This document shows, one piece after another, positions 32,959 through 41,892 of a DNA stretch of 64,000 nucleotides. Origin of the DNA: Paracoccus liaowanqingii. Lineage in GTDB: Bacteria; Pseudomonadota; Alphaproteobacteria; Rhodobacterales; Rhodobacteraceae. The notes under the pieces are model-generated. The model had not been told where the DNA came from. It ran no database searches and saw only the letters and a list, made by a program, of their open reading frames with translations. Both the position numbers and the translations under genes were made by a program. The stretch spans positions 62,001-126,000 of the forward strand of contig NZ_CP040765.1 in assembly GCF_004683865.2 (NCBI RefSeq). Direction: 5' to 3'. Within the stretch, counting starts at the first letter, position 1. Each line of letters opens with the position of its first letter.

Positions 32959-33008
32959 TGGATCGTTAACGTCTAGGCCGATGAGCGGCCATCTTGCTAA
33001 GTCCACAA

Positions 33009-33025
33009 ATAGGGGATACCCCTAT
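33009..33025. promoter_or_regulatory. Inverted repeat at the dmeR start, RcnR-type operator
   Basis: ATAGGGG-ATA-CCCCTAT: perfect 7-bp arms around a 3-base centre. It ends five bases before the preferred dmeR start (33030) and covers an earlier ATG at 33024. The G-tract dyad is the kind bound by RcnR/DmeR repressors. Confidence 0.78.
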
Positions 33026-33029
33026 GCCT

Positions 33030-33308
33030 ATGGGACATACGATCAAGAACAAGGCGGCCCTGCTGGCGCGTGTGCGGCGCCTCAAGGGGCAGATAGACGC
33101 GATCGAGCGCATGCTTGATGAGGACGCGCCCTGCGCCGAGGTGGTGAACCTCGTGGCATCCGTCCGCGGTGCCATATCGGGGCTGACGGCGGAACTGATC
33201 GAGGATCACGTCCGCAACCATGTCGCCGATCCCGAGACGGATACCGATCCGAACCGAGCCAAAGCGGCAGGCGAATTGATCGCCGTCATCAGGACCTATC
33301 TCAAATGA
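33030..33308 (+). CDS. dmeR: DmeR, RcnR/CsoR-family Ni/Co-responsive repressor
   Basis: 92 residues. With the start at ATG 33030 ('MGHTIKNKAALLARVRRLKGQ') the ligand residues fall at His3, Cys35, His60 and His64, exactly the numbering of RcnR, which argues for this start over ATG 33024. The helical core 'GQIDAIERMLDEDAPCAEVVNLVASVRGAISGLTAELIEDHVRNHV' is CsoR/RcnR-like. It is followed by dmeF with a 4-base overlap. It should repress dmeRF until Ni(II) or Co(II) binds. Confidence 0.88.
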   Translation: MGHTIKNKAALLARVRRLKGQIDAIERMLDEDAPCAEVVNLVASVRGAISGLTAELIEDHVRNHVADPETDTDPNRAKAAGELIAVIRTYLK

Positions 33309-34234
33309 CCGATGCCAGCCGCTTTGCCGCCCCGCATGAGCATGTCTTTCTGGGGCAGGATCATCACCGCAACGAGCGGCGCACCTGGGCCGTAATTGCC
33401 ATCACGACGGCGATGATGGTGATCGAAATCACCGCCGGCACGGTCTTTGGTTCGATGGCGTTGGTGGCGGACGGCTGGCACATGGCAACGCACGCCGCTG
33501 CCTTGCTGATCGCGGCGCTCGCCTATCGCTTCGCCCGGCGCAGGGCCGATGACAGGCGCTTTACGTTCGGGACGGGCAAGCTGGGCGATCTTGCCGGGTT
33601 CGGCAGCGCGGTCATTCTGGCAGTGATTGCGCTGCTGATCGGATGGGAGAGCTTTCAGCGTCTCGTCAACCCGGTGGCAATCAGCTTCGGCCAGGCCATT
33701 GCCGTGGCTGTCATCGGGCTGATCGTCAATCTGGGCTGCGCGTGGCTCTTGCGTGACGATCACGGCCATGATCACAGCCATAAGCACACTCATGAGCATG
33801 GGCACGGTCATCGGGACAATAATCTGCGCGCAGCTTACCTGCACGTCCTGGCCGATGCGCTGACGTCGGTTCTGGCAATCATTGCACTGGTGGTGGGCAG
33901 CCAGTCCGGCTGGCTGTGGATGGACCCTCTGATGGGCATTGTTGGCGGACTGGTCATCGCACGCTGGTCCTGGGGACTGATCCGCGACTCTGGTCGGGGA
34001 CTCCTGGACTATGTTCCCGAGGACGAAGACCTTCCTGAGGAAATCCGCGAGGCCATCGAGATCAGCGGCGACCGGATCGTGGACCTGCATGTCTGGCAGT
34101 TGGGCCCGGGGCATCATGGTGCAACCCTGTCCATCGTCAGCGATGCGCCGCAAGACGTCAGCACCTATCGGGCCCGGTTGGCGCATATCCACGATCTGTC
34201 GCACCTGACGATCGAGGTGACCCGGCCCGGCTGA
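33305..34234 (+). CDS. dmeF: DmeF, cation diffusion facilitator for Co/Ni
   Basis: 309 residues with six transmembrane helices. Helix 2 'GSMALVADGWHMATHAAALLIAALAYRFA' and helix 5 'LHVLADALTSVLAIIAL' carry the HxxxD metal sites of CDF transporters. Between helices 4 and 5 lies a His-rich loop ('DHGHDHSHKHTHEHGHGH'), typical of DmeF. The cytoplasmic end ('RIVDLHVWQLGPGHHGATLSIVS') is the CDF C-terminal domain. It exports Co(II)/Ni(II) and forms an operon with dmeR. Confidence 0.93.
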   Translation: MTDASRFAAPHEHVFLGQDHHRNERRTWAVIAITTAMMVIEITAGTVFGSMALVADGWHMATHAAALLIAALAYRFARRRADDRRFTFGTGKLGDLAGFGSAVILAVIALLIGWESFQRLVNPVAISFGQAIAVAVIGLIVNLGCAWLLRDDHGHDHSHKHTHEHGHGHRDNNLRAAYLHVLADALTSVLAIIALVVGSQSGWLWMDPLMGIVGGLVIARWSWGLIRDSGRGLLDYVPEDEDLPEEIREAIEISGDRIVDLHVWQLGPGHHGATLSIVSDAPQDVSTYRARLAHIHDLSHLTIEVTRPG

Positions 34235-34535: not shown

Positions 34536-34633
34536 GTCGCGTGCCGCACCAGGCCTAGCCTTAGAACGAAGCTGACCGCTACGTCAGCGTACCAGAATCG
34601 CGGAAATCAATGGGACGGGAACGGCGCATACGA

Positions 34634-34737
34634 ATGATCTCGACCGCCATCGAAACCTCCATCGTTTAATGGCAACGATTCAGATGATCAGGTCGAGGGA
34701 AGTCCCGTGCGAGTCGGAGCTCAGTGCCGTTGGTATA
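34634..34737 (-). mobile_element. Remnant of an IS630-family element end
   Basis: About 100 bases resemble the right end of the IS630 element at 57291-58449: the start 'ATGGCGGTCGAGATCAT' of the transposase gene, the spacer with 'GGCAACGATTCAGATGATCA', and the terminal repeat ending GTGCCGTTGGTATA. The rest of the element is gone. It marks the upstream border of the peptide cassette. Confidence 0.75.
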
Positions 34738-34986
34738 AGTACACGGCAAAATTCTATGCCATTTGGTCTAAAAGTATCCCATCTATTAAACATTCTCGCC
34801 ATGAGGTTACGTTGCTAACGCAACTTCTAGATGAAAAGCCCCAACGTGAATTAATTATAGCGAAGAATTAGGTTAAAAAATGCGAAGAAACCGCGATCAG
34901 AGCGAAATTTGAGTTTTCCTAGACGCTGACGTGTTCATTCTCAAAAACAGGAGGCCAATCCCTGGTCTCTGTGAGGAGAAAAGCAA
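34738..34986 (+). promoter_or_regulatory. AT-rich leader region of the peptide cassette
   Basis: Clearly more AT-rich than the neighbouring DNA. It contains nested dyads: GTTA (34806-34809) with TAAC (34816-34819), and GTTGC (34811-34815) with GCAAC (34820-34824), a plausible binding site for the cassette's own response regulator. GAGGAG at 34973-34978 is the ribosome binding site of the peptide gene. No exact -35/-10 pair can be chosen with confidence. Confidence 0.4.
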
Positions 34987-35139
34987 ATGCGTGATCTCAA
35001 AACGGAAGAGCTCGAAAGCGTTTACGGTGCCGGGAGCCGCGGTCGTCGTCGTCGCAAGCACCGCAAAGCACGTCGTCGCGATGCCAGCAATAGCAATAGC
35101 AATAGCAATAGCCGTAGCCGGAGCAATAGCAATAGCTGA
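34987..35139 (+). CDS. Precursor peptide with double-glycine-type leader, Arg-rich and (Asn-Ser)n core
   Basis: 50 residues, ATG at 34987 after GAGGAG. The N-terminus 'MRDLKTEELESVYGAG' has the form of colicin-V-type leaders (MR.L...EL.SV.GG), with a Gly-Ala-Gly in place of Gly-Gly. Cleavage after Gly14-Ala15 (or Ala15-Gly16) would release about 35 residues. The core has two halves: 'SRGRRRRKHRKARRRDA', strongly basic, and an Asn-Ser repeat 'SNSNSNSNSRSRSNSNS' encoded by the hexamer AGCAAT. A C39 exporter follows in the same operon. It may be a bacteriocin or a signal peptide. Ser-rich tails are modification sites in class IIb microcins; modification here is only a guess. No known family matches the core. 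Confidence 0.75.
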   Translation: MRDLKTEELESVYGAGSRGRRRRKHRKARRRDASNSNSNSNSRSRSNSNS

Positions 35140-35241
35140 CGCACGCCGACTCTGCGATTTGGCGCGTCGGCAATCCAACCTAGGTGCGTCCCGAGACACG
35201 ACCATCGGGGCGCGCGCACATTATAGACAGGAGTTTGAACA

Positions 35242-36219
35242 ATGCCCTTCGAGAGCGTAGCGGGTCTCGATGCAGAAATGAGCCGTGTTGCTTCGGCCAA
35301 TGACTCCGATATCCAGCGGGAAATCTGGCTTCTGGGTCAGCCGCCTCTGACGGACTTTCTGGATTACGTGAAGAAGGGAGTGGACGGCGGCGACAAAATC
35401 GATCGCGGCGTGCTTGTTGATGCCTGGCGGGATGCGAATGATCACTACTATGACCTTGAACAGCACGAAGCCGGTATTGCTGACACGATACAATGTTTTG
35501 AATTGCCGAGCTCTTTAGATGCGCTGGCCCGGGATCTCTCGGATCACGAACACTTTCGCAATACTTTTGATCGTATGCCCACCACGTTCGGCATGGTCGA
35601 GCTCGACAAGATAGTGGTCTCACAAAGACGCGTAACATTGCCTTTTGTCGATGCTCTGGCGTCGCAGCTTGGCCCACACACCGATGCTGTCAGTCTGTTT
35701 CGCTTTTGCCAGCCTTTCGAGCGCCGCGATCCGCAGGTCGAAATTCGGCGCTTGGGCAACCAGCGGTACGTTTTCATGTCTGCCTCCAACGACTTGCGTT
35801 TTCATGATGTTGTCTTGCTAGGCCCGAGTCAGATCCTTGACCGCAAAAGTTGCGCGCCTGTTTCGGGGGCCATTGGTGCCTTCGTTGGCTATGGCTCTAA
35901 TTTCTTGACCGTTATCCGGTCTGACGACCGAATGGTGCTCCACAACGGCTATCATCGCGCCGTCGCTATGCGGGCAGCGGGGATCACCCACGCGCCTTGC
36001 GTCATCCAAACTGTGACACGACGGGACGAACTGGAAGTTGCTGCCGCACAGCCTGTTGTTGATGACCCAGCCTTCTATTTCCGGTCGGCCCGTCCACCAG
36101 TTTTGAAAGATTTCTTTGACCCGAAGATCAGGACGATACTGCGCGCTCGCCGAACTCAAAAGCATGTCGAGGTTAACTTCGAAGTCAAGGAATACACCGT
36201 CTATGAGGGCGGACAATGA
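35242..36219 (+). CDS. ParB/sulfiredoxin-like protein of the peptide cassette, function unknown
   Basis: 325 residues with AGGAG before ATG 35242. Residues ~225-262 read 'IRSDDRMVLHNGYHRAVAMRAAG' and 'APCVIQTVTRRDEL', matching the core of the ParB/Srx fold (the NGYHR at 235-239 is the usual DGxHR phosphate-binding motif). That fold includes nucleases, CTPases and the ADP-dependent serine kinase SerK. The N-terminal 200 residues match nothing I know. No membrane segment or signal is seen. Its place between peptide and exporter genes suggests peptide modification, or regulation or immunity. It overlaps the HlyD gene by 4 bases. Confidence 0.6.
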   Translation: MPFESVAGLDAEMSRVASANDSDIQREIWLLGQPPLTDFLDYVKKGVDGGDKIDRGVLVDAWRDANDHYYDLEQHEAGIADTIQCFELPSSLDALARDLSDHEHFRNTFDRMPTTFGMVELDKIVVSQRRVTLPFVDALASQLGPHTDAVSLFRFCQPFERRDPQVEIRRLGNQRYVFMSASNDLRFHDVVLLGPSQILDRKSCAPVSGAIGAFVGYGSNFLTVIRSDDRMVLHNGYHRAVAMRAAGITHAPCVIQTVTRRDELEVAAAQPVVDDPAFYFRSARPPVLKDFFDPKIRTILRARRTQKHVEVNFEVKEYTVYEGGQ

Positions 36220-37520
36220 ATGGCCGAAGAGCTTCCGAACGCCTCGAAAAGGACGCGCCACTTTTCCGCGCTGAGGCGGTGGCTGAACAGCAAGACCGAT
36301 GGCTTGGAACAGTATTGCTGGTGCCGCGTATTTCGCATGTTTTGTGGACCGGCGTCGCGACTTTTCTGGTCGCCGGAGTGATTGGACTCGTTGGATTCGG
36401 GGAATACACCCGCAAGTCCCGCCTCCAAGGGTCACTTGTTCCTGAAGGTGGCTTGATCCAGGTAATGGCACCGCAACCCGGCGTGCTTACCAAGGTTTCG
36501 GTAACCGAAGGAAAAAAAGTAGTCCGCGGGGCTGCGTTGGCGGTTCTGTCGATCGAGCGTCGCAGCGAGACCATGGGCGAAACGCAGGGAGAGGTGGTGC
36601 GTGCACTGCGGGCACGCCGAGATGCCCTGGTTGCGGAGCGCGACCGCCATATCGCGCTATTTGACGGACAAGACGGGGCACGCCAACGTCGCATGCAGGG
36701 AATGAATGCAGCGCTTGAGCATCTTCAAGTTGAGTTTGACCTGCAGCATTCCCGAGTCGACCTTTCCCGGAACGCTCTGGATCGCCAGCGCGCTCTAAGG
36801 CAACGCAATCTGGTGACGGAGGAGACCCTTAGGTCGGCGGAGGAGGAGGCGCTGGATCAAGCGCTGGCGTTGCAGACGCTTGAACGCCAGCGCAGCACAT
36901 TGGATCTTGAGAAACTCGATATCGAGGTTGCTCACGAAGAGGCACCGTTCCGACGCGACCTGCAGCTTTCCGAAATCGACCGTTCTGTGGCCGCGCTTGA
37001 TCAGGAAATCGCTGAGGCCGAGGCCGCCCGCGAGATCGTCATTGCAGCCCCCCAGTCCGGTACGGTGACGGCATTGCAGGCGTCAGCTGGCAGCTCTGCG
37101 GGACCGGACATGCCGTTGATGACACTGGTCCCCGAGGATTCTTATTTAGAGGCCAGGCTCTACGGACCGAGCAGCGCGATCGGCTTCGTCCGGCCGGGAC
37201 AGCGGGCGATGATCCGGTACGAAGCGTATCCCTACCAAAAATTTGGACTTTACGAGGGGGTGGTCGCGTCGGTATCGCGCTCTACGATTGGGCATCTCGA
37301 GCTGGCAGCGGCGGGTATTTCCACCGTGACGGACTCCGGAAGCGAGCCTGTCTATCGGGTAACAGTTCGGCTCGCTGCACAGTCGGCAACTGCATATGGC
37401 GAGGACGCACCCCTACAGCCGGGTATGACGCTGAGCGCTGATATCGTGATCGAGACCCGCCGCATCTATCAATGGATTCTCGACCCTCTCTATTCACTGA
37501 CTGGGGAGGGCAAAGTGTGA
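36216..37520 (+). CDS. HlyD-family periplasmic adaptor of the peptide exporter
   Basis: 434 residues: cytoplasmic tail, one transmembrane helix ('GVATFLVAGVIGLVGFGEYTRK'), a lipoyl-like half ('GGLIQVMAPQPGVLTKVSVTEGKKVVRGAALAVL'), a long coiled coil (~115-270, 'RALRARRDALVAERD ... VAALDQEIAEAEAA'), the second lipoyl half ('IVIAAPQSGTVTALQASAG') and a beta-barrel region with 'VRPGQRAMIRYEAYPYQKFGLYEGVV'. This matches adaptors of colicin-V-type and RaxA-like exporters. It links the inner-membrane ABC protein to an outer-membrane TolC channel; no TolC gene is in the cassette. Confidence 0.9.
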   Translation: MNGRRASERLEKDAPLFRAEAVAEQQDRWLGTVLLVPRISHVLWTGVATFLVAGVIGLVGFGEYTRKSRLQGSLVPEGGLIQVMAPQPGVLTKVSVTEGKKVVRGAALAVLSIERRSETMGETQGEVVRALRARRDALVAERDRHIALFDGQDGARQRRMQGMNAALEHLQVEFDLQHSRVDLSRNALDRQRALRQRNLVTEETLRSAEEEALDQALALQTLERQRSTLDLEKLDIEVAHEEAPFRRDLQLSEIDRSVAALDQEIAEAEAAREIVIAAPQSGTVTALQASAGSSAGPDMPLMTLVPEDSYLEARLYGPSSAIGFVRPGQRAMIRYEAYPYQKFGLYEGVVASVSRSTIGHLELAAAGISTVTDSGSEPVYRVTVRLAAQSATAYGEDAPLQPGMTLSADIVIETRRIYQWILDPLYSLTGEGKV

Positions 37521-39694
37521 GCTCCGCAGGGCTGCAGTTTGGTTGGGGCCGCCGGCTGCCGGTTAGTCTGCAGTCCGAGGCGGCAGAGTGTGGTCTCGTT
37601 TGCCTGTCAATGATCGCGAGCTACCACGGGCAACATTCAGATCCTGGAGCCTTGCGGCGACGCCACGGGTTCTCGCTCATGGGGGCAAGCCTCAAGGATG
37701 TGATCTCGGTTAGCGACCGGATCGGGCTCGCCGCACGCCCGGTACGCCTCGAGCTAGATGAGCTTCGGCTACTGCGCCTGCCCTGCATCCTGCACTGGGA
37801 TTTAAACCATTTTGTAGTTCTGCAGGCGGTACGCCGAGGTGGTGTGACAATTCACGATCCGGCCGAAGGCGTGCGCCGGTTGTCTTTGGCAGAAGTCTCC
37901 CGGCATTTTTCTGGCGTAGCGCTCGAACTTACGCCGACGGGCGGCTTTGAGGCAGCCGAGGCGCCACCGCGGATCCGCATTCGTTCACTTCTAGGCCGCA
38001 TCACGGGTATGCGCCGTTCGCTTGCTCACCTGCTGCTCCTTGCTTTCGCTCTCGAGATTTTCGCACTGCTCGCACCCCTGTTTCTTGGCTTGACGGTTGA
38101 CCAAGCTATCGTTTCTGCCGATCGAAGCCTCCTGCTGTCGTTAGCTATCGCTTTTGCTCTTCTGCTCTTGTTGCAGACGGCGATCGGCGCGCTGCGCGGC
38201 TGGATGCTAATCACGCTTGGAGCAAGCCTAAAAGTGCAGGCCAGGACAAACTTGTTCTCGCACTTGATTGCCCTGCCCGCGAGCTATTTCGAGACACGAC
38301 ATGTTGCTGATGTGATGTCGCGCTTTGACAGCCAAGACACTATTTTGCAGACGCTGACGACCGACCTCGTGGTGGCAATCCTTGACGGATTGATGTGCAT
38401 AATCACCCTCGTCGTCATGTTTGTTTTGGCCCCGACACTCGCGACTGTCGCACTTGTCGGCGCGGCACTTTACGCGTTGCTACGCTGGTCGTCTTACATG
38501 CCCCTGCGGCAGGCCTCGGCTGAAGCCATCATCTGGGCGGCGCGACGCGACAGTCACTTCCTCGAGACCCTGCGAGGAATTAAGACCATTAAGCTTTTCA
38601 ACGGCCAGCAGGATCGGAGGGCGCACTGGTTGAGTCTCCTGGTTGAGACGACAAATCGACAGCTTATCACTCAGCGGCTAAACCTCCTCTTTCGCACCGC
38701 AAATAGCTTGCTTCTCGGTATCCTCAGCATCCTAGTAGTCTATCTTGCAGCACGGATGATCTTTGAGAATGTCTTCTCGGTGGGGCTGCTGATCGCCTTT
38801 ATTGCATACAAAGATTTGTTTGTGCGCCGGGTCAGCGGGTTAATCGACACTTTTGTTGAACTCAGGATGTTGGGTTTGCATGCAGAGCGTCTGGCTGACA
38901 TTGCACTAACTGCCCCGGAGCCCATTGCTGACCTGCGCCCGAAGGTGGCGCATCGAAATCCCGTCGGGATCGAAGTGCGCGATTTGTCGTTCCGCTACGG
39001 GCCCAACGATCCCCTTGTTTTACACGGGGTCAGCTTTCAGATTGCGCCGGGGTCGTCGGTAACCTTCGCCGGTCCCTCGGGATGTGGCAAGACTACCCTG
39101 CTGAAGCTGCTGGCCGGACTTCTTGTTCCGACATCAGGGACGATCATGATAGATGGTGAACCAATGGCGCGCCTCGGCCCAGAAAATTGGCGCGCGATGA
39201 TCGGTGTCGTCATGCAGGATGACTTTCTATTCGCAGGCTCTATTGCAGATAATATTGCTTTCTTCACCGCAGGCGCCAATCCCGACCTGATCGAAGACTG
39301 CGCACGGCGCGCAGCTGTCCATGATGATATCATTGCTATGCCTATGGGTTACGGCACACTGATTGGCGACATGGGCACTGTTCTATCTGGCGGACAAAAG
39401 CAGCGTCTTCTTCTCGCCCGCGCGTTGTTTCGTTCACCGGGGCTGCTGCTGCTCGACGAGGCCACGAGCCATCTTGACGTAGCGCGTGAACGGGCGGTGA
39501 ATAAGGCGCTGCAAAACTTGGCAGTGACCCGGATAGTCGTCGCACACCGCCCCGAGACGATATTCGCCTCCGAACGAGTCATTACGTTCGCGAAAGGCCA
39601 GATCGTGTCTGACACAGGCAGAGAGGACGAAACGGATGAGCATCCGCAACAAGATCATCGCCTTCCAGTTGATCGTTGCTCTATTGTTGCTTAG
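37517..39694 (+). CDS. Peptidase C39 ABC exporter (CvaB/RaxB-type)
   Basis: 725 residues from GTG 37517, overlapping the HlyD stop (GTGA). The C39 peptidase domain (1-~150) has the full catalytic set: Gln19 and Cys25 in 'LQSEAAECGLVCLSMIASYHG', His98 in 'LNHFVVL' and Asp114 in 'IHDPAEG'. Six transmembrane helices follow (~180-450). The nucleotide-binding domain has Walker A 'GPSGCGKTT', 'LSGGQKQRLLLARAL' and Walker B 'LLLLDEATSHLD'. It should cut the leader of double-glycine peptides and export them with ATP. The 3' end overlaps the kinase gene by 59 bases. Confidence 0.95.
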   Translation: MSSAGLQFGWGRRLPVSLQSEAAECGLVCLSMIASYHGQHSDPGALRRRHGFSLMGASLKDVISVSDRIGLAARPVRLELDELRLLRLPCILHWDLNHFVVLQAVRRGGVTIHDPAEGVRRLSLAEVSRHFSGVALELTPTGGFEAAEAPPRIRIRSLLGRITGMRRSLAHLLLLAFALEIFALLAPLFLGLTVDQAIVSADRSLLLSLAIAFALLLLLQTAIGALRGWMLITLGASLKVQARTNLFSHLIALPASYFETRHVADVMSRFDSQDTILQTLTTDLVVAILDGLMCIITLVVMFVLAPTLATVALVGAALYALLRWSSYMPLRQASAEAIIWAARRDSHFLETLRGIKTIKLFNGQQDRRAHWLSLLVETTNRQLITQRLNLLFRTANSLLLGILSILVVYLAARMIFENVFSVGLLIAFIAYKDLFVRRVSGLIDTFVELRMLGLHAERLADIALTAPEPIADLRPKVAHRNPVGIEVRDLSFRYGPNDPLVLHGVSFQIAPGSSVTFAGPSGCGKTTLLKLLAGLLVPTSGTIMIDGEPMARLGPENWRAMIGVVMQDDFLFAGSIADNIAFFTAGANPDLIEDCARRAAVHDDIIAMPMGYGTLIGDMGTVLSGGQKQRLLLARALFRSPGLLLLDEATSHLDVARERAVNKALQNLAVTRIVVAHRPETIFASERVITFAKGQIVSDTGREDETDEHPQQDHRLPVDRCSIVA

Positions 39695-41210
39695 TACGGG
39701 AGGAGGAACGTACTTCGCAATCGAGCGCATCGACTATTATTTCGATCGAAGCCGCTTGGCCCGTGCGCAAATGGATACTGTCATCCGGCTGTCTGCGCAC
39801 ATGAACCGATACTCAGAGAATATCGCGGAGATGCTTCTCCTTGGAAGAACAGAGCTTGATGATTTCTATGTTGCGCGCGCCAGTCTTGAAGACAGCTTCG
39901 ATCTTCTCACCGATATGGTCGAAGAAGAAATAAGCTTCGTACGTTCCTCCGATGAGCGCGACGAGGAGCAAGAAGAGCTCGTGCGTGTACGGGCGATGCG
40001 CGAGCTCTATGAATCAATCGATCTGACGGCCGAGCGTTTGATGGTCCTGCGCGATTCCGGCCGTCAGGCCGAGGCGGTCGAGCTATTTAGGGACGACATC
40101 GAGAATCGCATGGATGAGGAACTCGAAAGGTACATCTCAGCCGCAATTGCCGACGAAACCGAGGAGCTTGAAGTTATCCAAACGCGGACCAATCAGCTTG
40201 AGCAGCAGCTGACGATCCTCGTCATTGCGATCTGTTTTGCTGCGTTGGGAGTATCTCTGGTTGCGGGAACGATGCTTACCCGGGCCTTAACGCGACCGAT
40301 CCGTGCTTTGATTTCAGGCGCACAGGCAATTGGCGACGGCAACCTTGGCTACCGGATAACTTACGACCGCAAGGACGAGTTTTCCGATTTGGCAGACCAG
40401 TTCAACACGACAGCTGCGCAACTTGAAGCGCAGCGTAACCAGCTTCTTGAGGTTCAGTCGGGACTCGAGACAGAGATTGGCCAGAGGATCAGCCAACTCG
40501 AAGAGGCAAATAGTCGTTTGAAAAAGCTCGATGAGATGCGAATGCTGTTTCTCGCCGATATTGGACACGAGTTGCGCACGCCGCTCACCGTACTGCGTGG
40601 CGAGGCCGAGATTGTGCTTCGTGGGAATAAGGTAGTCGAGGATTATCGAGAGACATTGAGCCGCATCGTTGGGTTAACTGGTCAGATGGGTCGTTTGATC
40701 GAGGACCTCCTGTTTCTTTCTCGTGCCGAAGTGGGCGCGATCCGCTTTGAAATGGAACCGCTTGTGCTTCGAGATGTCTTCGAAGTGGCGCTTGGCGAGG
40801 CGCGCGTTCTGGCAGCGGAAACAGGCGTGCTGTTGCAAGCCACCATCGACGAGCCCTTTTGCAAAGTGGAGGGCGACGCCGAGCGCCTGACCCAAGCCTT
40901 CTTAATCGTACTTGATAACGCTATTAAGTATTCCAAGCGCGGCGCCTCCGTCGACGTGACACTATGTTCCACCCGGCATGACGCCGTGGTCAGCGTGCGC
41001 AATGCAGGCGCCAGTATTCCCGCGAACGATCTGCCTTTTGTCTTCCACCGTTTCTACAGAGGACATCAGTCTGATAATCGCCCGACCGTCGGTAGCGGTC
41101 TCGGCCTTCCAATTGCCAAGTGGATTACCGACACCCATGGTGGGAACATTTTCCTGAAAAGCGCAGACTGTGAGACAGTTGTAACATTTCGCTTTCCCCT
41201 GATCGCGTGA
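39636..41210 (+). CDS. Sensor histidine kinase of the peptide cassette
   Basis: 524 residues. A first membrane helix (~5-28), a ~155-residue acidic, helical periplasmic domain, a second helix ('LTILVIAICFAALGVSLVAGTML'), a HAMP domain ('TRALTRPIRALISGAQAIGDGNLGYRITY'), a coiled coil, the dimerisation box 'LADIGHELRTPLTVL' (His311), and the ATPase part with 'LIVLDNAIKYS' and 'VGSGLGLPIAKWITDTHGG'. The periplasmic helical bundle could sense the exported peptide or membrane stress. It overlaps the exporter gene and is followed by its response regulator after ten bases. Confidence 0.93.
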   Translation: MSIRNKIIAFQLIVALLLLSTGGGTYFAIERIDYYFDRSRLARAQMDTVIRLSAHMNRYSENIAEMLLLGRTELDDFYVARASLEDSFDLLTDMVEEEISFVRSSDERDEEQEELVRVRAMRELYESIDLTAERLMVLRDSGRQAEAVELFRDDIENRMDEELERYISAAIADETEELEVIQTRTNQLEQQLTILVIAICFAALGVSLVAGTMLTRALTRPIRALISGAQAIGDGNLGYRITYDRKDEFSDLADQFNTTAAQLEAQRNQLLEVQSGLETEIGQRISQLEEANSRLKKLDEMRMLFLADIGHELRTPLTVLRGEAEIVLRGNKVVEDYRETLSRIVGLTGQMGRLIEDLLFLSRAEVGAIRFEMEPLVLRDVFEVALGEARVLAAETGVLLQATIDEPFCKVEGDAERLTQAFLIVLDNAIKYSKRGASVDVTLCSTRHDAVVSVRNAGASIPANDLPFVFHRFYRGHQSDNRPTVGSGLGLPIAKWITDTHGGNIFLKSADCETVVTFRFPLIA

Positions 41211-41220
41211 GGTAATCCCC

Positions 41221-41892
41221 GTGACAAAAATTCTTCTTGTCGAAGACGATCCCCGGATTGCCAGTTTCATCTCACGGGGTCTGACAGCCGAGGGGCATGC
41301 CATAGATATTGCTTACTGCGCTCTGGAAGGCCTATCTTTGGCACGTACGACGGGATACTCGTTGATTATCCTCGATAGGATGTTGCCCGATATAGATGGT
41401 GTCGAGGTCTGTCGGCAATTGCGCAGCGATAACTACGGCGGCCGCATACTGATGTTAACTGCCAAGGATGCGATAGGGGATAAAATTAGCGGTTTGAACG
41501 CTGGCGCGGACGACTATATGACGAAACCTTTCTCGTTCGACGAATTCGTGGCGCGGGTCGAAGCTCTTTTACGTCGCAGCACGCCAGAGAGTATTGATCC
41601 GATGTTGCGAGTCCAAGACCTGACCTTGGACCTGCGCTCTCGACAGGTACGGCGCGGTGATCGGGAAATAGAGCTCACGCGCAAGGAATACGCCCTACTC
41701 CGCTACCTGATGGAGAACACGGGGACTGTCCTAACCCGTACACAGATTCTGAATAATAATTGGGGCTATGGTTTCGACCCTGGAACCAAGGTTGTCGACG
41801 TCTATGTGCGTTATCTTCGCAAGAAGGTGGACGACGGAGAAGCGAGACCACTTATTAAGACGAAGCGGGGAGCCGGCTATAGCATTGGATAG
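41221..41892 (+). CDS. OmpR-family response regulator of the peptide cassette
   Basis: 223 residues from GTG 41221 after GAGG. Receiver: 'ILLVEDDPRIASFISRGL', phosphorylated Asp52 in 'IILDRMLPD', Thr80, Lys102 in 'MTKPFSFDEF'. The C-terminal winged helix has 'EIELTRKEYALLRYLMENTGTVLTRTQILNNNWGYGFDPGTKVVDVYVRYLRKKVD'. With the adjacent kinase it forms a complete two-component system. It may bind dyads upstream of the peptide gene. Confidence 0.93.
   Translation: MTKILLVEDDPRIASFISRGLTAEGHAIDIAYCALEGLSLARTTGYSLIILDRMLPDIDGVEVCRQLRSDNYGGRILMLTAKDAIGDKISGLNAGADDYMTKPFSFDEFVARVEALLRRSTPESIDPMLRVQDLTLDLRSRQVRRGDREIELTRKEYALLRYLMENTGTVLTRTQILNNNWGYGFDPGTKVVDVYVRYLRKKVDDGEARPLIKTKRGAGYSIG

Follow-up and report, generated by a model that had tools for sequence, protein, structure and literature searches.

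C39 exporters cleave and export peptides that carry double-glycine leaders. In the RaxX-RaxSTAB system of Xanthomonas, a double-glycine-leader precursor is clustered with its modifier, the fusion protein RaxA and the leader-removing exporter RaxB, the core genome supplies TolC, and the distribution is sporadic with lateral transfer (PMC6637879). Here we analyze a six-gene cassette in a 64,000-nucleotide stretch of Paracoccus liaowanqingii DNA (contig NZ_CP040765.1, positions 62,001 to 126,000; hereafter, the window), which we read with moderate confidence as an operon under two-component control that makes a small, secreted polycationic peptide, with a putative maturation factor of the ParB/sulfiredoxin (Srx) fold. 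Judged by analogy, its architecture resembles that of RaxX-RaxSTAB with another modifier: both feature a small double-glycine-leader precursor, one modifier gene, a fusion protein and a leader-removing exporter, and a sporadic distribution with lateral transfer, the latter being likely here. Whereas the RaxX modifier is the tyrosylprotein sulfotransferase RaxST, the modifier candidate here is the ParB/Srx-fold protein, and Pfam/NCBIfam-type models identify no sulfotransferase among the six cassette products; the cassette differs further in the repeat-like, polycationic core of its peptide and in that a kinase/regulator pair, together with its candidate site, forms part of it.

34860..34892, + strand: candidate response-regulator site, three 11-bp units GCGAAGAATTA GGTTAAAAAAT GCGAAGAAACC
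34987..35139, + strand: precursor peptide gene, 50 residues, leader MRDLKTEELESVYGA plus 35-residue core
35242..36219, + strand: ParB/Srx-fold protein, putative maturation/tailoring factor, 325 residues
36216..37520, + strand: HlyD-family membrane fusion protein (Pfam HlyD), 4-bp overlap with the ParB/Srx-like frame
37472..39694, + strand: C39 peptidase-containing ABC exporter (Pfam), 49-bp overlap with the HlyD frame
39636..41210, + strand: sensor histidine kinase (Pfam), 59-bp overlap with the exporter frame
41221..41892, + strand: OmpR/PhoB-type response regulator (Pfam), 10-bp gap after the kinase frame

A conserved leader precedes drifting polycationic cores

All six frames described in an initial annotation of this DNA are present on the forward strand and, as it also stated, overlap or nearly touch from the ParB-like gene onward. 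The exporter combines Peptidase_C39, ABC_membrane and ABC_tran domains and is the single Peptidase_C39 match across the whole genome; the Gln, Cys, His and Asp that had been called intact are indeed all in place (Q34, C40, H113 and D129). Its best-scoring NCBIfam models are those of NHLP and other C39 exporters, TIGR03796 and TIGR01846, yet the scores fall far under the cut-offs (472.1 vs. 853.3 and 384 vs. 726, respectively). A GAGGAG ribosome site lies ahead of the precursor gene, and a search for a sigma-70-type promoter upstream of the cassette found none.

Collection by the ParB-like protein yielded 21 distinct loci including the window, drawn from 13 one-per-species genomes, five further genomes of the genus (one apparently the same record as among the 13) and three plasmids. 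A small frame with the strict leader pattern is present in 20 of them: in 18 the nearest such frame is 202-468 bases ahead of the point at which the ParB match starts, L018 has it downstream of the ParB gene, and L019 has one on each side. HlyD and C39 exporter genes usually accompany the precursor and ParB/Srx-fold genes. The leaderless exception, L028, carries its ParB gene in two pieces and, a 26% ABC piece 6.7 kb away aside, no C39 gene was found there. Across loci the leader takes the form MRDL..EELE.VYGA, with hydrophobic spacing and Gly-Gly, Gly-Ala or Gly-Ser ahead of the predicted cleavage site. Of the 24 matches to the strict pattern in the 507,502 bases of 29 loci, 23 have a ParB-like gene no more than 1.7 kb away, and none falls in the eight lasso-type loci described below or elsewhere in the window; a leader query against plasmids gave no match. 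Over the first 16 codons the window and its Roseivivax counterpart differ by eight synonymous and no nonsynonymous bases, and L025 and L026 differ in the leader by seven synonymous and no nonsynonymous ones. Judged by this conservation, the small peptide gene is genuine and beyond chance occurrence. The proposal of a 50-residue leader-bearing peptide thus stands, as does the expectation that a genome search would find such frames upstream in related loci, and the peptide is borne out as a leader-bearing candidate substrate of the exporter. The one remaining match, a further leader-bearing small frame, MRELDPSECDVVSGGCGRGWGKK..., lies on the minus strand of L013 at about position 1272, 3.1 kb from the ParB-like gene and on the opposite strand to it.

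The 35-residue core in the window is rich in Arg, Ser and Asn, with a net charge of +12. Its Ser-Asn repeats are encoded by a hexanucleotide tandem repeat (35086..35136, + strand; AGCAAT, 8.5 copies, 86% matches), which would fit core drift by slippage. Elsewhere, cores such as SNSNSNSNSRSRSNSNS, SKSKSKSKSK, RSRSRRSRRSRR, GSHKGSSGKGSHKGS and NTNKQNTNKQNTNK are mostly low-complexity polycations built of SNSN, SKSK, RSRR or GSHK repeats. Each of the 23 cores encoded in ParB-linked loci, not counting the distant L013 frame, has at least four Ser/Thr and at least two Lys/Arg, and two are net acidic. A profile of the precursor retrieved 217 relatives at E ≤ 10; among the 120 listed, which were the ones analyzed, 69 are repeat-type and 51 carry NNG-x-GNG. 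Repeat-type cores consist of 22% Ser, 21% Lys, 20% Gly, 8% Arg and 4% LIVMFWA, with 290 SK pairs against 138 in shuffled sequences and SS and KK at about half of expectation. No Pfam or NCBIfam model scored above cut-off for the window precursor and 10 relatives. The secreted product is probably a disordered polycationic peptide. The second core class, GNNGFGNG...PGNSG, accounts for 51 of the 120 listed relatives (P0127-P0246) and occurs among the 21 ParB-linked loci in L019 and L024 only; an NNGxGNG-type query against plasmids retrieved just the known Blastomonas plasmid. On that plasmid (L024:1334-3698) the gene order is precursor, ParB-like gene, 2OG-Fe(II) oxygenase, precursor, with two core classes.

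Leader type, HlyD and C39 exporter are all of the class II microcin/colicin V kind, and cationic peptides are often antimicrobial, so that an ordinary unmodified microcin, bacteriocin or peptide pheromone with an incidental ParB-like protein has to be weighed. We regard it as improbable: precursor and ParB-like gene are neighbors in 18 of the 21 loci, even where identity of the ParB-like protein falls to about 42%, the ParB-like family accompanies another precursor class too, and the low-complexity polycationic core is nearly devoid of hydrophobic residues. Neither the extra ParB-like protein nor the absence of a recognized immunity gene among the window cassette frames, for which no systematic test was made, recalls class II microcins. 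The bacteriocin cluster of Paracoccus marcusii is a DUF692 cluster and a different thing (PMC8273931).

The ParB/Srx-fold protein as a candidate maturation factor

The ParB-like protein, to which the initial annotation gave no role, is the most informative part of the cassette. It belongs to a family of 1,033 relatives, with Stenotrophomonas, Xanthomonas, Steroidobacter and Microbulbifer among the named matches and no relative in viral contigs. Structure comparison backs the earlier ParB-fold-like reading and supports a ParB/Srx fold for the core domain, with Foldseek against pdb ranking the same superfamily first, if weakly; Osa, in VIA rows 33-34, we take to have this fold too, and the small heat-shock proteins in rows 35-36 are unrelated. 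The assignment itself is not new, since UniRef already names some members "ParB/Sulfiredoxin domain-containing." Identity as a partition protein was rejected, with neither ParBc (PF02195) nor helix-turn-helix (HTH) models among the matches of 71 tested members at E ≤ 1; PF02195, which these members do not match, is also the model by which a 2025 ParB-fold survey selected its proteins. Among the open-access PMC papers listed in our searches (bioRxiv lying outside this scope) we found no description of the present precursor/ParB-fold combination.

In family f46, inferred to be Xanthomonadaceae, a ParB-like relative was found in 8 of 247 genomes searched, at 27-34% identity to three query proteins, and all eight adjoin lasso A, B and C genes (L033, L034, L041-L046). 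The lasso A gene lies about 200-350 bases from the ParB-like gene and is divergent from it, while Pfam identifies Transglut_core3 and Asn_synthase in the B and C proteins tested (L043 B and C, L041 C). The precursor end SETKAHNHGTLWDGVFPTTSP is exact in five of the eight and varied in three. Mainly because the family adjoins lasso A/B/C genes as well as double-glycine-type precursors, the reading that we favor for it is that of a maturation or tailoring factor for ribosomally synthesized and post-translationally modified peptides (RiPPs). The arrangement recalls the paeninodin and pseudomycoidin clusters, in which lasso A/B/C genes are likewise joined by a further gene whose product might act on the precursor; there the known lasso kinases are PadeK/PsmK (PMC9266682). 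The portions used here of that review and of a note on Stenotrophomonas lasso peptides (PMC4675943) make no mention of ParB. In two distant cassettes, L010 and L023, a FemAB-like gene (49% identical between them) lies downstream of the ParB-like gene and could encode a further modifier.

Thirty positions are conserved, with at most one exception per set, in 20 double-glycine-peptide and eight lasso-type members, and the polar residues H238, R239, R284, D290, D184 and R186 are common to both precursor classes. With SerK, SbnI and sulfiredoxin the family shares the core-domain fold and a G-x-H-R motif (NGYHR in the cassette protein); it is set apart by some 75 residues between the fold halves, as judged by eye, and about 100 extra N-terminal residues. 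The sulfiredoxin catalytic Cys sits in GCHR, and its place is taken by Tyr in the double-glycine-peptide class (NGYHR) and by Ser in the lasso class (NGSHR). The family profile met as its best PDB match 5ceg, an unrelated plasmid-stabilization protein (E 0.84), and the ParB/Srx-fold entries that it met are all the free serine kinase SerK (E 0.99-1.5), whose DGHHR aligns with NGYHR. Invariant Gln128 occupies the position of SerK Glu30 (by eye) and invariant Asn235 that of the Asp of DGHHR, which is Asp58 in SbnI, where Glu20 and Asp58 are catalytic (PMC9641203); neither the catalytic Glu/Asp of SerK and SbnI nor the Cys of sulfiredoxin is retained.

These alignments bear on two alternatives. 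The protein could be a peptide Ser/Thr kinase that phosphorylates core Ser/Thr, and perhaps the lasso TTSP end, giving a phospho-repeat peptide; the SerK-only fold matches, the abundance of Ser/Thr in all 23 ParB-linked cores, the lasso-type endings (TTSP in 8/8, FPTTSP in 7/8) and the existence of phosphorylated lasso peptides, albeit made by the other kinase type PadeK/PsmK (PMC9266682), would all fit. The SerK matches are, however, marginal and outranked by an unrelated protein, amides occupy the positions of both kinase acids, SerK is inactive on Ser inside a peptide (PMC5120207), and Lys and Gly are equally universal in the cores, so that we deem phosphorylation distinctly unlikely. Somewhat unlikely, in our view, is a regulator, nucleoside triphosphate (NTP) switch or leader-binding chaperone that does not act on the core. 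ParB folds are often NTP-dependent switches (PMC12704722), EdeB, a ParB-family protein of a peptide-antibiotic cluster, binds its own promoter (PMC9641203), and the replacement of catalytic acids by amides would agree with such a role, but EdeB is said to have an HTH, for which, as for PF02195, the 71 members gave no match, the Rhodobacterales cassettes already have a kinase/regulator pair with its own candidate site, and the six polar residues kept in both classes resemble a reaction or ligand center. Returning to a tailoring role, we tentatively put forward, at somewhat less than even confidence, a new ParB/Srx-fold family of RiPP-tailoring enzymes with a reaction new to the fold and two unrelated precursor classes: the proposed new tandem-repeat-core, polycationic C39-exported peptides and Xanthomonadaceae-type lasso peptides. 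Such an enzyme might possibly modify hydroxyl, amine or amide side chains in an NTP-dependent manner.

A candidate operator shared with paralogous loci

The kinase contains HAMP, HisKA and HATPase_c domains, with its H-box starting at 309 (His311), and the regulator has Response_reg and Trans_reg_C domains and Asp51. A kinase/regulator pair follows the C39 gene in seven loci and HlyD in L028 (8/21 in total: the window, L007, L008, L022 and L025-L028, every one of them from Rhodobacterales). A distant pair is present in L015, upstream and on the opposite strand. Outside Rhodobacterales no directly downstream pair is found where the sequence extends far enough. The sequences of L009, L010, L014 and L016 end before the position can be judged.

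Sites of OmpR/PhoB-type regulators are typically direct repeats with 11-bp phasing. In all seven cassettes with both precursor and pair, a 33-bp element, made up of three 11-bp units whose cores are (A/T)AGA-like (TAAA in the middle unit of the window), ends 93-98 bases before the start codon. Leave-one-out scans rank it first in each locus at 26.8-46.3 bits, with the next best at or below 9.9, although the seven loci are related and the scans hence not an independent test; nine further loci lack the element, their best score of 8.7 bits lying in L028 away from any precursor. An independent test used four paralogous, noncassette pair loci chosen by kinase similarity (48-54% identity, those at 32-36% being set aside): the element is present in all four at 24-37 bits, 99-107 bases before a 245-residue RTX-type frame (Pfam run on one). 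These are L053 (5963-9299, G000:C7), L054, L055 and L056. A 21-bp pattern, allowing up to two mismatches, occurs at exactly two places in the 4.9-Mb genome, before the precursor and before the RTX gene of a second pair, and nowhere in the control.

Together, the shared candidate site supports the adjacent pair as the likely controller of precursor transcription, in keeping with the control of the cassette that had been suggested for it. Our confidence in the operon as we read it is kept at moderate because the random control for the promoter word that the loci share is not fully clear-cut. The pair is, by contrast, not dedicated to the cassette as first described, since four paralogous pairs that have this site as well adjoin RTX genes; a cassette-only pair was rejected, with 13 of 125 genus genomes having the kinase at E ≤ 1e-60, including a second copy here. 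A quorum circuit in which the kinase senses the mature peptide is weakened because the paralogous pairs adjoin RTX genes. Sensor-domain net charges range from -16 to -23 in the seven peptide-linked kinases and from -8 to -18 in the four RTX-linked ones, with -12 in L015, which is suggestive, at most, of an acidic sensor tuned to a cationic peptide.

Origin and distribution

Consistent with the distinct base use noted at the outset, GC content is 56.4% in the cassette against 61.8% and 59.2% in the left and right remainders of the window, and at third codon positions it is 58-63%, compared with 76% and 70% for the two flanking genes in which it was determined. The nearest relative is from Roseivivax, at 75% vs. 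53-57% for intact copies in other Paracoccus, and the five larger cassette proteins are 73-85% identical to those of Roseivivax. The ParB tree groups the window with Roseivivax (100/100), separately from four other Paracoccus and a Rhodobacter plasmid (98/95). Acquisition, which the initial annotation had surmised from base use and the bordering IS630 remnant, is likely by phylogenetic placement as well, and another rhodobacterial lineage is supported as its source. Of the IS630 remnant that it placed at the border, a repeated segment of about 110 bp is real (34631-34747, with five further genome copies at 80-82%, one of which has a DDE_3 transposase frame some 0.5 kb away), whereas its identity as IS630 is weakly indicated, if plausible. 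Directly left of the cassette, at window positions 32994-34234, inspection by eye shows two frames, one small and regulator-like, the other resembling the cation efflux protein CzcD.

Counted as lower bounds in genome samples that include the own genome, with part of the candidates scored, ParB-like relatives occur in at least 4 of 390 genomes of the order (all in the genus), 6 of 125 of the genus, 3 of 398 of the phylum and 1 of 385 of the class (the own genome). This sparse distribution bears on the alternative that the peptide, once exported, is part of the matrix or envelope, where it would bind extracellular DNA, capsule, mineral or some other secreted protein instead of being a toxin or signal. 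Such a role would suit the drift of the low-complexity polycationic cores behind a fixed leader, as well as the paralogous pairs of the genus, which share the site and adjoin a 245-residue RTX gene, but so patchy an occurrence, in the genus and class alike, fits an accessory weapon or signal equally well, and we consider the matrix role fairly unlikely.

Implications

In light of the results presented here, we propose that the operon encodes a small secreted polycationic peptide and would operate as follows. Kinase-phosphorylated regulator would bind the triple repeat, as its conservation leads us to infer, and turn on the precursor and downstream genes; the 50-residue precursor would be recognized through its leader; and the ParB/Srx-fold protein, a nucleotide-binding fold with no recognizable HTH, would act on it in the cytosol, an action proposed because the family adjoins two unrelated RiPP-type precursors and keeps invariant polar residues. 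The C39 domain would then cleave after Gly14-Ala15, and the ABC/HlyD pair, together with a housekeeping outer-membrane channel, would export an Arg/Ser/Asn peptide of about 35 residues, which outside the cell could serve either attack on competitors or an envelope/matrix role.

The family is real, widespread and of a known general kind, and the role of one of its components would be new. If the ParB/Srx-fold protein modifies precursors, peptide natural products would be a new field of action for a fold known from chromosome segregation, serine phosphorylation and the repair of sulfinic acids, and, should tailoring hold true, two substrate classes become available for comparison. The peptides themselves form a fast-drifting simple-repeat family unrecognized by the Pfam and NCBIfam models tried, and with a predicted operator in the operon, regulation, processing and modification are each directly testable.

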